From Rodentolepis nana (taxonomy: Eukaryota > Platyhelminthes > Cestoda > Cyclophyllidea > Hymenolepididae): a stretch of 12,186 bases of DNA. Positions within the stretch are counted from its first letter, which is position 1. Each line of letters opens with the position of its first letter. A program made the translations under genes and the position numbers. The DNA is taken from positions 1-12,186 of the forward strand of contig UZAE01001645.1 in NCBI GenBank assembly GCA_900617975.1, written 5' to 3'. Below, piece by piece: positions 3,528 to 12,186 of this stretch. The notes under the pieces are model-generated. The model was not told the origin of the DNA and searched no databases. It worked only from the letters and a program-made list of their open reading frames with translations.

Positions 3528-3584
3528 CTAAAACAGAAAGTTACTTTCAAGAATGAAATAAATATATATGCATATAATGGACTT

Positions 3585-3654
3585 GGGGTGCGCAATAGAC
3601 TTACCTCCACGTGGTGCACCCTGGGCAACGTATACCTATACGGCAAAGTCTATT
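3585..3654 (+). ncRNA. HDV-like self-cleaving ribozyme (predicted active)
   Basis: The nested double-pseudoknot order of the HDV class can be traced by hand. P1: 3585-3591 GGGGTGC with 3616-3622 GCACCCT (7 pairs, first one G-U). J1/2: GC. P2: 3594-3600 AATAGAC with 3648-3654 GTCTATT. P3: 3603-3605 ACC with 3613-3615 GGT. L3: 3606-3612 TCCACGT, with the two C able to form P1.1 with G3623-G3624. The joining strand GGGCAAC is at 3623-3629. P4: 3630-3634 GTATA with 3637-3641 TATAC. J4/2: 3642-3647 GGCAAA, placing the expected general-acid cytosine at 3644. Cleavage is expected just 5' of G3585, at the element start. Such ribozymes are known at the 5' ends of R2 and some other non-LTR elements, where they free the 5' end of the RNA. 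The tiny P4 loop would probably open one pair. Confidence 0.85.
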
Positions 3655-3713
3655 AACTGGTAGTTGACTTCTCCTATACGGCAAAAAAATCTATTGATCG
3701 GCAGTTGATTTCT
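3635..3713 (+). repeat. Tandem duplication overlapping the ribozyme's 3' part
   Basis: Two imperfect units, 3635-3672 and 3673-3713, both start CCTATACGGCAAA and continue into a TCTATT and GTTGA block. The other element copy (10111-10441) has only one. The repeated piece contains half of P4, the J4/2 strand with the catalytic C, and the 3' strand of P2. The second unit could therefore offer a competing, weaker P2 partner. Confidence 0.75.
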
Positions 3714-3965
3714 GACTTCAAATTTCTATGGTCCGACTATTTGTCATATTCGACCCCTTCACAGTACTCATCTTACCTTTTTTATGCCTTTGTGTTTGTC
3801 TGTCTGTCTGACTCTTTCATATCTGTGAATCACTCTTCTGTTTCCTCTCTCGACTTTTTGTAACTTTAATGTTCCTTCTGCTCTCTGTGAAGCCCCGAAG
3901 TCAGCTCCAGGGCTAATAATGATTATCAAAATGCCTGCCATTTGATATAAATAAATATAATGGAC

Positions 3966-4178
3966 ATACTTGCCTTATCCCAGTAAACAGAAACTCCCAC
4001 TTAGGACGTTAAGGAATTAAATTTGAAATTGTTGTGCTTTCCATTATTAACTCGATGATACTCCAATAGGTAATCGAGCTGGCCTTTTTGCGCATTTACC
4101 ACAAGATTCTCTCAATAAAAACGAATTTTAAATCTTTCTGTGTGAGCACCAAAAAAACGGAAATGCATTTTGACTTAC
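3966..4178. other. Putative intron sequence
   Basis: AT-rich sequence between the retroelement and the 39-nt candidate exon. No separate feature is seen. Confidence 0.3.
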
Positions 4179-5494: not shown

Positions 5495-5537
<43 letters not shown>

Positions 5538-5838: not shown

Positions 5839-6505
5839 ATGGATGATGCTTGTGATGAATGTGAAATGAGCTTTTGGTATAAATATCAATTAAACGATCG
5901 CAAACGCAAACATATTACCAAAAACCAATTATCTGTGAAACTTGCGAAAATGATTTGAGCAAAAATTATGAACTGAATGCTCACGAAAATATCCACAGTG
6001 TCTATATACCATTCAACTGTAAAAAATGTGATAAAGCCTTTACAAATAAATCCAATTTTTCGAAACATATGCATATCCATGCTGGAGCAAACCAATCCAA
6101 TGCACAGTATGTGACAAAAAAGTGCAGTTAAATACAATTTGACAAGACAATTGCGCTTGCAAACTGGTTAAAGACGATCCAATTGCAATGTATGTTGAAA
6201 GCGGTTTAAACAAAGAAATTACTTAATTCATCAAATTCGAACCCATCCTTGAGAAAAACCATTCAAATGCAATGCATATAGAAGGCGTTTTGAAGATATA
6301 TATTAGGAATTTACACTGACTTTAACACACTGGTAAAATTCTATAGACTTTTGAAGAATATGGAAAAGCATTTATTCAGAAGATTTTCTTTTAATTCGAC
6401 ACTAACAGATCCTCTCAAGAGAAATGAAATTTAGGTGCAAAGTTTGTCAAAAAAACAACTTTAAAAGTTTATTTAAAAACATACAAAGATACACACGCAT
6501 CTAAA
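5839..6505 (+). pseudogene. Decayed C2H2 zinc-finger gene fragment, about seven fingers
   Basis: The finger pattern C-x2-C-x12-H-x3-H recurs across shifting frames. Finger 1 starts at 5851 (CDECEMSFWYKYQLND), with its first His changed to Arg. Finger 2 starts at 5933 (CETCENDLSKNYELNAHENIH) after a frameshift in an A-run. Finger 3 starts at 6018 (CKKCDKAFTNKSNFSKHMHIH) and is intact. Finger 4 starts at 6101 (CTVCDKK) after another frameshift and is broken again. Finger 5 starts at 6184 (CNVC) with TGA right after the second Cys. Finger 6 starts at 6268 with its second Cys changed to Tyr, after an EKPFKC linker remnant. Finger 7 starts at 6436 (CKVCQ) and has lost its His. Linkers are degraded forms of TGEKP. 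The ATG at 5839 begins the frame of finger 1, but no promoter or upstream exon is visible. A functional relative would be a nuclear DNA-binding protein; this copy cannot encode one. Confidence 0.85.
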
Positions 6506-10110: not shown

Positions 10111-10441
10111 ATGCGCATTAAATTTATTTATTCAAATGGCAGGCGTTTTGATTGACACCATTAGCCATTTAGGTGACTACGGGCTTCACAGAGGGAAGGT
10201 TCAAAAAGTAGCAGAACAGAAGAGCGATTCACAGATGAAAAAGAGGCAGACTGACACGAAGGTAGAGATGAAGGTAAGGTGAATACTGTGGAGGGGTCAA
10301 ACATGACAACCGGAGAGGTCGTGGTTGTTTGAAGTCAAAAGTCAAATGGGGGTTAATAGACTTTATTCCCGTATGAGTATACGTTGCCCAGGGTGCACCG
10401 CGTAGAGTTAAGTCTATCGCACACCCCATGCGCATTAAATT
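10111..10441 (-). mobile_element. Short non-autonomous retroelement with 5' HDV-like ribozyme and LINE-type 3' tail (copy 2)
   Basis: A perfect 14-bp target-site duplication ATGCGCATTAAATT lies at 10111-10124 and 10428-10441. Read on the minus strand, the element begins GGGG at 10427, exactly next to the duplication, and runs through the ribozyme fold and a pyrimidine-rich middle containing CATCTGTGAATCGCTCTTCT. The other copy has CATATCTGTGAATCACTCTTCT. It then ends with CGCCTGCCATTTGAATAAATAAAT. It is shorter than copy 1 because it lacks the internal duplication at 3635-3713 and has other indels. The 68-codon open frame over 10229-10435 is a chance frame across the ribozyme and body. Confidence 0.87.
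10355..10427 (-). ncRNA. HDV-like ribozyme, probably inactive copy
   Basis: The fold is the same as at 3585-3654. P1 pairs GGGGTGT with GCACCCT, with G-U pairs at both ends. P2 pairs GATAGAC with GTCTATT. The joining strand GGGCAAC is identical. P4 is GTAT with ATAC around a 4-nt loop. L3 is TCTACGC, one of its two P1.1 cytosines being T. The J4/2 strand reads GGGAATAAA instead of GGCAAA, so the position expected to hold the catalytic cytosine (10368) is G, and three bases are added. The middle pair of P3 (A opposite G) is also lost. Cleavage is therefore not expected. The predicted cleavage point coincides exactly with the target-duplication edge. Confidence 0.75.
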
Positions 10442-10699: not shown

Positions 10700-10785
10700 A
10701 TATTTATTTATATTTATTTCAAATGGCAGGCTTTATGATATTTATCATTAGACCTTAAGCTTTGACTTCAGGTTCACCCAAGGGT

Positions 10786-10795
10786 GGGGGGGGGG
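10786..10795 (-). repeat. Poly-C run in LINE 3' UTR
   Basis: Ten C on the minus strand, about 35 bases before the terminal hairpin. The LINE end at 1-98 has a poly-C at the same relative position, so it belongs to the family's 3' UTR. Confidence 0.7.
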
Positions 10796-10816
10796 TACAT
10801 TTATAGCAGTTAATTA

Positions 10817-11320
10817 CTAGCAATTAATTAGCTGTCTACTTGATTCCAAATATCTCTGGCTTTCCGTCGTTGGCTTTAGAGCTGGACACTGAATCAGGTG
10901 GGTCCTCTCCATTTCCTCCTGTAGGTTACATAGGGGGCATGTGAGTTGAGTGTATACTCTCAATTTGTGAAGGTGTTTTGCGAGCAATTGTGTCCGGTAC
11001 GTAGTTTAGACTCAGCAACGGCTTCGATTCTTGGCCAGTCGGGTATGTCGGAGAGTGCCACTGTGAACTGTTTCTCCTTTGTTCGAGCTTTAATTTCGTT
11101 GCATCTTGAGATTTGGAATTCTCTCCTGATAAAGGCCTTCATTGTGTGGAAATACATCGGCCGGTCCATGCATTGCAAAATCGTTGTCCCTTTCTTAGCA
11201 AGTGTGTCAGCAATCTCATTGTCTTTAATGCCACAGTGACCAGGAATCCATTGTAAGACCACTCTTTTGTTTTTCTCTCTCAGCAGCTCATAGAGTTTTC
11301 TGCATTCATTTATCTCAACC
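10817..11320 (-). pseudogene. RNase H and C-terminal Cys/His part of LINE ORF
   Basis: The frame begins abruptly at VEINECRKLYELLREKNKR and continues VVLQWIPGHCGIKDNEIADT, which contains the RNase H His and the last Asp of the active site. The first acidic residues of RNase H are missing, removed by the deletion that joins this segment to RT at about 11320. After SKLRTGHNC a one-base deletion near 10987 shifts the frame. The other frame continues LAKHLHKLRVYTQLTCPLCN and then MERTHLIQCPALK, a C-x2-C-x9-H-x3-C motif (first Cys codon at 10937-10939) usual at the C-terminus of such LINE ORF2 proteins. Stop at 10819-10817. Confidence 0.85.
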
Positions 11321-12185
11321 AACCTTTGCCAATTTCAGAATCAGATTCTCTTTCCATACTAAGTCATAAGCTGATTTGAAATCAACGAAAACAGCCCTAA
11401 GGGTGTTTGTTGCATCAAGGGCATCTTTGGTGTGTTGGGAGGAAGTGGCTACTTGTTGGTTCGTTGATCGATGTGGCCTGAAACCTGCTTGTTCACTCCA
11501 AGAATATTGTTGGTCTCATGGAACCAGGTCAGCCTCCTGTTAACCATTCCTTCCCTAAGTTTAGCCAGCAGGCTTGTGAGGGAGATAGACCAATAGTTGT
11601 CAAAGTTGCTACGGTCTTTGCCCTTTTTTAGTACTGGTATTACTATGGCAACTTCCAATTTTTAGTACTGGTATTACTATGGCAATTTTCCATTGGTTGG
11701 TAAGTACTGGTATTACTATGGCAACTTTCCATTGGTTAGGTACGAAACTGGTCTCCCAGATTTTTTTAAAAGCATCAACATGGTTTCTTTGGCTTCTGGC
11801 TCCATTCTAATTAGAAATTCCGGATGAATACCGTCTTCGCCAGGAGACTTCTTGCACTTTAGCTGTTTTATCGCAGCATTAAGTTCGCAAGGTCTGAATG
11901 GTTCAGTAAGTACATTATTAAGTGTTGCGTCTTCCTTAATTTCAACAAACTCTCTTACATGTATCTTTAAATCTTTTGAAGATTTTCTGCCAAAAGTGTT
12001 TTCTTTTGTTTGTGGGAATAGAACCTCGCAAAGCAGTTGGCTATTTCGGTGTCGGTGGTAAGCAATTTGCTGTTTAAGCGTATTGGATCTCTCTTGGGTC
12101 TTTCTCTGTTGTTTTGCAGGTTTCTCAGAAATTTGAAAGTGCGTTGGCTATCACTTTGATAGTTGATATTTGAGATGAACTTGTC
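11321..12185 (-). pseudogene. Reverse transcriptase N-terminal part of LINE ORF, broken by frameshifts
   Basis: From the window edge the frame reads KFISNINYQSDSQRTFKFLR and on to IANCFARFYS. It shifts near 12015 to GRKSSKDLKIHVREFVEIKE and then KCKKSPGEDGIHPEFLIRM (11817-11848), the conserved block before the RT fingers. A T-run at 11761-11767 (one base short) causes another shift. The AIVIPVLKKGKDRSNFDNY and ISLTSLLAKL blocks follow, spoiled by a triplicated segment at 11630-11735. Another one-base loss near 11491 precedes QAGFRPHRSTNQQVA. Catalytic motif A, FVDFKSAYD, is at 11363-11389. The YxDD motif, thumb and the start of RNase H are absent: the frame ends at LKLAKVG where the RNase H remnant starts. 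Confidence 0.88.
11630..11735 (-). repeat. Three tandem copies of an RT segment
   Basis: The + strand motif AGTACTGGTATTACTATGGC starts at 11630, 11664 and 11703, spacings of 34 and 39 bases, each followed by an AACTTTCCATTGG-like piece. On the coding strand it encodes QWKVAIVIPVL of the RT fingers. The 39-base step keeps frame and the 34-base step breaks it. An intact relative should have one copy. Confidence 0.9.
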
Positions 12186-12186
12186 G

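Follow-up and report, generated by a model that had tools for sequence, protein, structure and literature searches.

A putative HDV-like ribozyme heading a high-copy, non-coding retroelement with a candidate partner LINE in an apparent flatworm

The closest described systems to the element considered here are the R2 SIDEs of Drosophila, which according to the accessible text of PMC3414825 are short and non-autonomous, combine a 5'-terminal HDV-like ribozyme with a LINE 3' end, are mobilised by a LINE and are freed from a co-transcript. These elements occupy fixed 28S rDNA sites, where the same text calls them rare and derives them by internal deletion, and template jumps at 5' ends are reported for R2 and R2/R1 SIDEs. 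A comparable arrangement exists in trypanosomatids, in which the LINEs L1Tc/ingi encode endonuclease, reverse transcriptase (RT) and RNase H and have a 5' ribozyme in common with their short partners NARTc/RIME; the available portion of PMC4035085 describes the shared 5' sequence, Pr77, as a promoter as well, and the short partners as truncated versions of the LINE. SIDER2 of Leishmania carries more than one ribozyme-related 5' signature per short element, namely two in tandem (PMC5509151 and PMC4035085, accessible parts), and the animal retrozymes are non-autonomous retroelements with a self-cleaving ribozyme, in their case a hammerhead (PMC7229834, accessible part).

The feature at position 3585 of the window, by which we mean the whole 12,186-nt stretch analysed, very probably forms the 5' terminus of a non-autonomous non-LTR element, non-coding and present in many copies, that is predicted to be self-cleaved from read-through RNA and mobilised by a partner LINE. 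Such an element would resemble the R2 SIDEs in every respect listed first above, including release from a co-transcript, and differs from them in its thousands of core matches, in a middle without clear match in the LINE pieces compared, and in its insertion sites, since its copies have varied flanks in place of the one 28S rDNA site of an R2 SIDE. Like NARTc/RIME and L1Tc/ingi, the short element and its LINE have a 5' ribozyme in common, and the two LINEs are alike in domain content; the host lineages are distant. The two tandem signatures of SIDER2 compare with 17 partial cores (a motif count) in one array described below, and, unlike the retrozymes, the short element has an HDV-type ribozyme at its 5' end together with a LINE tail. 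The preliminary description had suggested an undescribed family. This may hold for the family itself, whereas the kind of element is known from R2 SIDEs and NARTc/RIME (PMC3414825 and PMC4035085, as far as their accessible text goes). The accessible literature on HDV-like and self-cleaving ribozymes, covering flatworms, arthropods, SINEs, template switching and drz-Agam, yielded no report of the short-element family, an absence of little weight as most subscription journals lie outside that scope. New, in our view, are the family's likely host lineage, its abundance, the middle absent from the LINE pieces compared and the 5' arrays of partial cores. An arrangement of LINE, short partner and HDV-like ribozyme known in trypanosomatids and insect rDNA elements is now seen in an apparent flatworm, where it is not tied to one target site.

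The ribozyme fold

By hand tracing, the preliminary description had assembled a 7-bp P1 beginning with G-U, a 7-bp P2, a 3-bp P3 with the loop UCCACGU, a joining strand GGGCAAC, P4, and a GGCAAA strand bearing C3644. All of these parts are present, P4 with 5 bp (3629-3633 with 3638-3642), and together they provide the P1, P2, P3, P1.1 and P4 of the double-pseudoknot fold of HDV-like ribozymes, with the predicted catalytic cytosine in J4/2 (Table 1). The covariance-model and descriptor searches that had been recommended bear this out. RF02682 (Rfam) matches 3585-3655 (+) at 46.8 bits (E 3.2e-6, gathering score 44) with 0 non-standard pairs marked, and the pseudoknot helix P2, which this model leaves unscored, is perfect in all 7 pairs. 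A five-helix descriptor, consisting of P1, P2, P3, P4 and the joining strands and composed after the site was seen, has its sole window match at 3585 and matches 0 of 200 dinucleotide shuffles. The RF02682 score and the descriptor result rule out a chance fold for 3585-3654. The nested minimum-energy fold of the region (z -0.62, with 51 of 200 shuffles folding equally well or better) gives no support, because the program is unable to form pseudoknots.

RF00094 also matches, at 33.1 bits over 3583-3694 and under its cut-off of 50, and its alignment takes a second copy of the ribozyme 3' half located 38 nt after the first; owing to this duplication, either strand could complete the fold. The families RF02682 (HDV-F-prausnitzii), RF00094 (HDV_ribozyme) and RF01787 (drz-agam-1) belong to the same ribozyme class as the ribozyme at 3585. 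RF02682 is named after a bacterial example, and the likeness lies in the core common to the class and carries no sign of transfer; for the horizontal transfer from Faecalibacterium that the name might suggest, there is no evidence. The second copy of the element in the window, read from 10427 to 10125 on the minus strand, has G at the catalytic cytosine position (10368), reaches only 24.2 bits with RF02682 and is missed by the descriptor.

Table 1. Features of the short element and of LINE-derived sequence in the window
Feature	Position	Strand	Basis or remark
LINE or short-element 3' tail from a further copy, at contig edge	1..93	+	direct reading
5' target-site duplication ATATAATGGACTT, reaching ribozyme G1	3572..3584	+	12/13 identical to 3955-3967; 11-nt exact match ends 2 nt before G1
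HDV-like ribozyme, predicted cleavage before G3585	3585..3654	+	RF02682 and descriptor
P1 5' strand GGGGUGC	3585..3591	+	direct reading and Rfam alignment
P2 5' strand AAUAGAC, partner 3648-3654	3594..3600	+	direct reading
P3/L3 hairpin ACC-UCCACGU-GGU	3603..3615	+	direct reading and Rfam
P1 3' strand GCACCCU	3616..3622	+	direct reading and Rfam
J1.1/4 GGGCAA (P1.1 guanines and joining strand)	3623..3628	+	direct reading and Rfam
P4 hairpin CGUAU-ACCU-AUACG	3629..3642	+	direct reading and Rfam
J4/2 GCAAA, predicted catalytic cytosine 3644	3643..3647	+	direct reading and copy comparison
P2 3' strand GUCUAUU	3648..3654	+	direct reading
Second copy of ribozyme 3' half (P4 3' strand, GGCAAA, P2 3' strand)	3673..3713	+	13-nt exact direct repeat; extent read directly
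Element middle, no clear match in LINE pieces compared	3714..3908	+	alignment
3' end common to LINE copies L094, L077, L091 and L078 (80-88% identity), AT-rich tail at end	3909..3959	+	alignment
3' target-site duplication ATATAATGGACAT	3955..3967	+	match search and direct reading
Second element copy	10125..10427	-	14-nt exact target-site duplications 10428-10441 and 10111-10124
Decayed LINE 3' part (3' tail preceded by RNase H fragment), internally deleted when compared with other copies	10701..12186	-	Pfam RNase_H; 3' limit read directly

Copies, insertion boundary and conservation

A 24-base core stretch has 4,959 exact occurrences (2,293 + 2,666) in 107,105,815 bases, a figure inflated as an element count by arrays with several cores, and the backward pattern has 0. 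Among the matches listed, 9 of 100 core places have a same-strand neighbour less than about 300 bases away. The window's 70 nt found matches in 40 of 40 scored places in its own genome (the best 40 of 1,026 candidates), and RF02682 gave at least 59 matches across the whole genome (61 scored of 25,212 candidates), at least 37 of them over the cut-off; the same model was positive in 0 of 14 control genomes, which were mostly or all prokaryotic. Thousands of cores amount to an extensive natural collection of ribozyme variants, in which insertion boundaries would report where the RNA was cut.

For comparisons among copies, 89 ribozymes were collected as BLAST matches that cover query positions 3 to 58 and have 110 bases of sequence, repeats of one place being removed. 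Collection by ribozyme or element similarity means that this sample favours intact ribozymes. Of these, 85 are distinct, and in 63 the flank was long enough and the tail recognisable; the set used for lengths and identities also numbers 63 and was obtained with a slightly different filter. Elements with a recognisable 3' tail measure 289-458 nt, and 289-373 nt in 56 of the 63. The absence of coding capacity proposed from the window extends to these copies, which contain no long reading frame, their longest stop-to-stop stretches being 52-128 aa.

In 29 of 63 copies, an exact direct repeat of at least 8 nt runs up to G1 and is found again behind the tail, as compared with a mean of 1.36 and a maximum of 4 when the 3' flanks are shuffled. 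Shifting the repeat 1, 2, 3, 4 or 5 nt into the element leaves 5, 2, 1, 1 and 0 of 63. Repeats ending 1-3 bases before G1 are present in 34 of 63 copies (control 1.5) and those ending 4-6 bases before it in 30 (control 0.8); both counts take in trimmed versions of long G1-reaching repeats, together with a small number of copies in which the match does not extend to G1. The best duplication match per copy lies at offsets of 0-3 from G1, and target-site duplications extend up to 15 nt. Since the duplications reach G1 and drop when shifted into the element, the predicted cleavage site is the element start; with the Rfam match, this upholds the original proposal that a short retroelement begins with an HDV-like ribozyme.

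A further view of the boundary comes from 20 neighbourhoods of other copies plus the window (128,814 bases), the neighbourhoods being no random sample, as they were picked for a strong ribozyme. Besides the bait copy of each neighbourhood, they contain 30 copies that have a 3' end, a count from which the window's own two copies were not excluded. Starts fall within base 8 in 19 of them (base 1 in 16), at bases 9-85 in 5 and at base 249 or later in 6, and the last may be LINE tails. The family consequently displays the target-site duplications, the LINE-type 3' tail and the occasional 5'-shortened copy by which a non-LTR retroelement inserted by target-primed reverse transcription is recognised.

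Among the 85 distinct ribozymes, 79 retain the J4/2 cytosine, and the examined positions of L3, P1.1 and J1.1/4 keep one letter in 81-84. The covariation check put forward in the preliminary description did not come out in its favour: 1,916 of 2,040 cells are paired (93.9%), and as this is not above shuffles (mean 93.7%, maximum 94.1%), within-family covariation offers no support. Changes from the consensus letters comprise 4 two-sided, 149 one-sided and still paired, and 124 broken cells, and 10 cells are two-sided relative to the commonest pair; at P2 pair 10-70, A-U occurs in 34 copies, G-U in 27 and G-C in 6, with 18 unpaired. The test is unhelpful because the copies differ too little and each decays on its own, and we take the pattern as what young copies in independent decay would be expected to show. 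Mean pairwise identity over 63 copies is 0.887 for the ribozyme, 0.797 for the middle and 0.865 for the 3' end, and the higher conservation of the ends weighs little, given that copies were found via the ribozyme and a recognisable tail was required.

The partner LINE

The LINE-type character claimed for the 3' tail is supported by a LINE of the same genome that has both ends in common with the short element. Its endonuclease, RT and RNase H domains were pieced together from partial copies. One copy, L094, starts with the ribozyme, and the first ATG of its endonuclease frame follows about 30 nt further on; it also includes an RNase H part and a short untranslated 3' end, closes with the same tail as the short element, and is flanked on both sides by AATATTTAACAATC (matching 14-nt duplications). 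This copy is broken by an N and much of its interior is missing; the RT domain is found in related copies. When its first 301 nt were compared with the genome, the 40 best of 3,060 candidates included L094 itself, the other 39 were 95-97% identical to it, and 36 of the 40 scored alignments begin at base 1.

The ribozyme of L094 scores 30.0 bits with RF02682 (cut-off 44; E 0.00039 in a 188-base search), 31.3 bits with RF00094 (cut-off 50; E 0.0039) and only 12.4 bits with RF01787 (cut-off 37), and an Rfam scan of ten loci at E 0.01 listed no ribozyme match for L094 or L100. In that scan, 5 of the 10 loci (L018, L046, L048, L064 and L066) contain a copy over the RF02682 cut-off, L037, L043 and L057 each have a copy at 40.5-43 bits against the required 44, and three more copies in L018 score 32.7-36.2 bits.

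The short element has the LINE 5' and LINE 3' ends that characterise a SIDE, being 84.5% identical to L094 at the 5' end (71 columns) and 87.8% at the 3' end (49 nt); across the LINE pieces, about 50-60 nt of the 3' end are common at 80-88% identity. Further inside, the duplicated ribozyme half alone rematches the LINE ribozyme within element nt 93-146 (E 0.015), and element nt 147-310 gave only chance-level matches of 10-21 nt against the partial LINE pieces (E 0.65 or worse). Long matches to L077 and L078 are read as separate short-element insertions, of which one lies just after the LINE copy and one inside it. The window's own LINE piece, taken as 10730-12186, aligns to other copies in parts that split at query 869/870, and in this form, with most of the tail left out, it has no match to the short-element 3' end. 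About three tandem units of 34-39 nt lie at 11625-11742 within the LINE-derived stretch.

Judged by these shared sequences, the short element most plausibly parasitises the same-genome LINE, being itself non-autonomous, and a likely course of its propagation can be outlined. Host transcription would run through an element copy, and the RNA would adopt the HDV-type double pseudoknot and, as fold and boundary suggest, cleave itself before G3585 to leave an RNA starting with GGGG. The partner-LINE protein would then presumably recognise the 3' tail common to both elements, and the RNA would be inserted by target-primed reverse transcription, which leaves target-site duplications. Because the released RNA starts with the ribozyme, every full-length copy would bring it along.

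Core arrays and alternative readings

At some loci the ribozyme core is repeated. L100 contains 17 core motifs, partial cores included, over about 800 nt upstream of the apparent start of the short-element body. An alignment allowing jumps, applied to five loci chosen for showing arrays, revealed 49 backward junctions, which fall into 28 distinct kinds. Downstream units start at ribozyme positions 16-26 (P3/L3) at 33 of the 49 junctions and in 14 of the 28 kinds, upstream units end at 54-72 (P4', J4/2, P2') at 35, and 36 show no microhomology. Many junctions, and the same run of units, are common to L018, L074 and L100, and blocks were therefore inherited or copied as units, so that independent junctions are fewer than the totals imply. 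DNA slippage is a less likely origin for the arrays, considering the 28 distinct pairs and the 36 junctions without microhomology. Both the arrays and the duplicated halves would be accounted for by occasional template jumping of the LINE reverse transcriptase at the stable ribozyme, as the junctions suggest. Tentatively, and with considerable doubt, it is conceivable that the ribozyme has two roles, setting the 5' end and acting as an RT roadblock, that repeated jumps from P3/L3 of one ribozyme back to J4/2 or P2' of another built arrays of cores of about 40 nt whose blocks spread as units, and that these may serve as 5' monomers of a promoter-like or protective kind. With the arrays, one could test directly whether template jumping in target-primed reverse transcription is provoked by a structured ribozyme.

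Two further loci are of note in this regard. At L055 365-440, the middle of a three-unit element, the ribozyme unit resembles the LINE ribozyme by eye, for which a jump between two RNAs (LINE and short element) would be needed. L073 301-960 contains two short elements arranged head to tail and separated by about 25 nt, and an N (a possible assembly join) is present at the end of the first element's tail.

The layout of the arrays also bears on the function of the 5' end. In L018 and L100 the first unit has GGGG and the P1 strand and most inner units are without them, which counts against the 5' 70 nt being mainly an internal promoter that starts at G1, as Pr77, with an inherited ribozyme fold that is either dispensable or additional. 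The catalytic core, kept as a ribozyme would need it with one letter in 79-84 of 85 copies, argues in the same direction, even though the copies were found via that same sequence. We consider a primarily promoter function unlikely, while recognising that promoter monomers occur in other LINEs and that the core arrays resemble them. A promoter start at G1 would likewise yield the insertion boundary observed, and Pr77 is reported to be internal promoter and ribozyme at once (PMC4035085, in its accessible text). Very unlikely, in our estimation, is that the current ribozymes are relics of a dead family whose pile-up at G1 records past activity: many copies do have broken pairs or a lost catalytic cytosine, as in the window's minus-strand copy, but the near-identity of the LINE 5' ends (95-97%) and the existence of short elements that combine exact 14-15-nt duplications with intact-looking ribozymes point to recent activity. 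An ordinary Pol III-transcribed SINE whose ribozyme-like head has no present use would fit the length, abundance, target-site duplications and LINE-shared 3' tail, as well as a weak B-box-like stretch (ATTCGACCC) visible by eye mid-element in many copies, yet it is highly improbable, as ARAGORN finds no tRNA in the window, an Rfam scan of the window at E 5 is without tRNA, 7SL or 5S match, and the runs of four or more T inside 63 of 63 elements (five or more in 55) would tend to halt Pol III, all of which agrees with the lack of a visible internal Pol III promoter remarked upon in the preliminary description.

Aside from the ribozyme-headed element and its LINE, the window contains an 82-aa frame at 5883-6131 (+) matching Pfam zf-C2H2 (E 4.2e-9), which may be an exon of a zinc-finger gene or a decayed remnant of one, and an (AT)20 microsatellite at 5498-5537. 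Weak Rfam matches to mir-1277, mir-297, mir-466 and mir-3149, all under cut-off, fall on this microsatellite and are taken as chance. Elsewhere in the assembly, L089 3458-5113 (-) on contig C1797 is mitochondrial COX1 of the host, and of the three codes tried, code 9 gives the highest Pfam score at 357.5 bits, ahead of code 4 (350.1) and code 5 (343.0). Mitochondrial code 9 is that of flatworms and echinoderms, and the COX1 protein presumably resembles that of parasitic flatworms.
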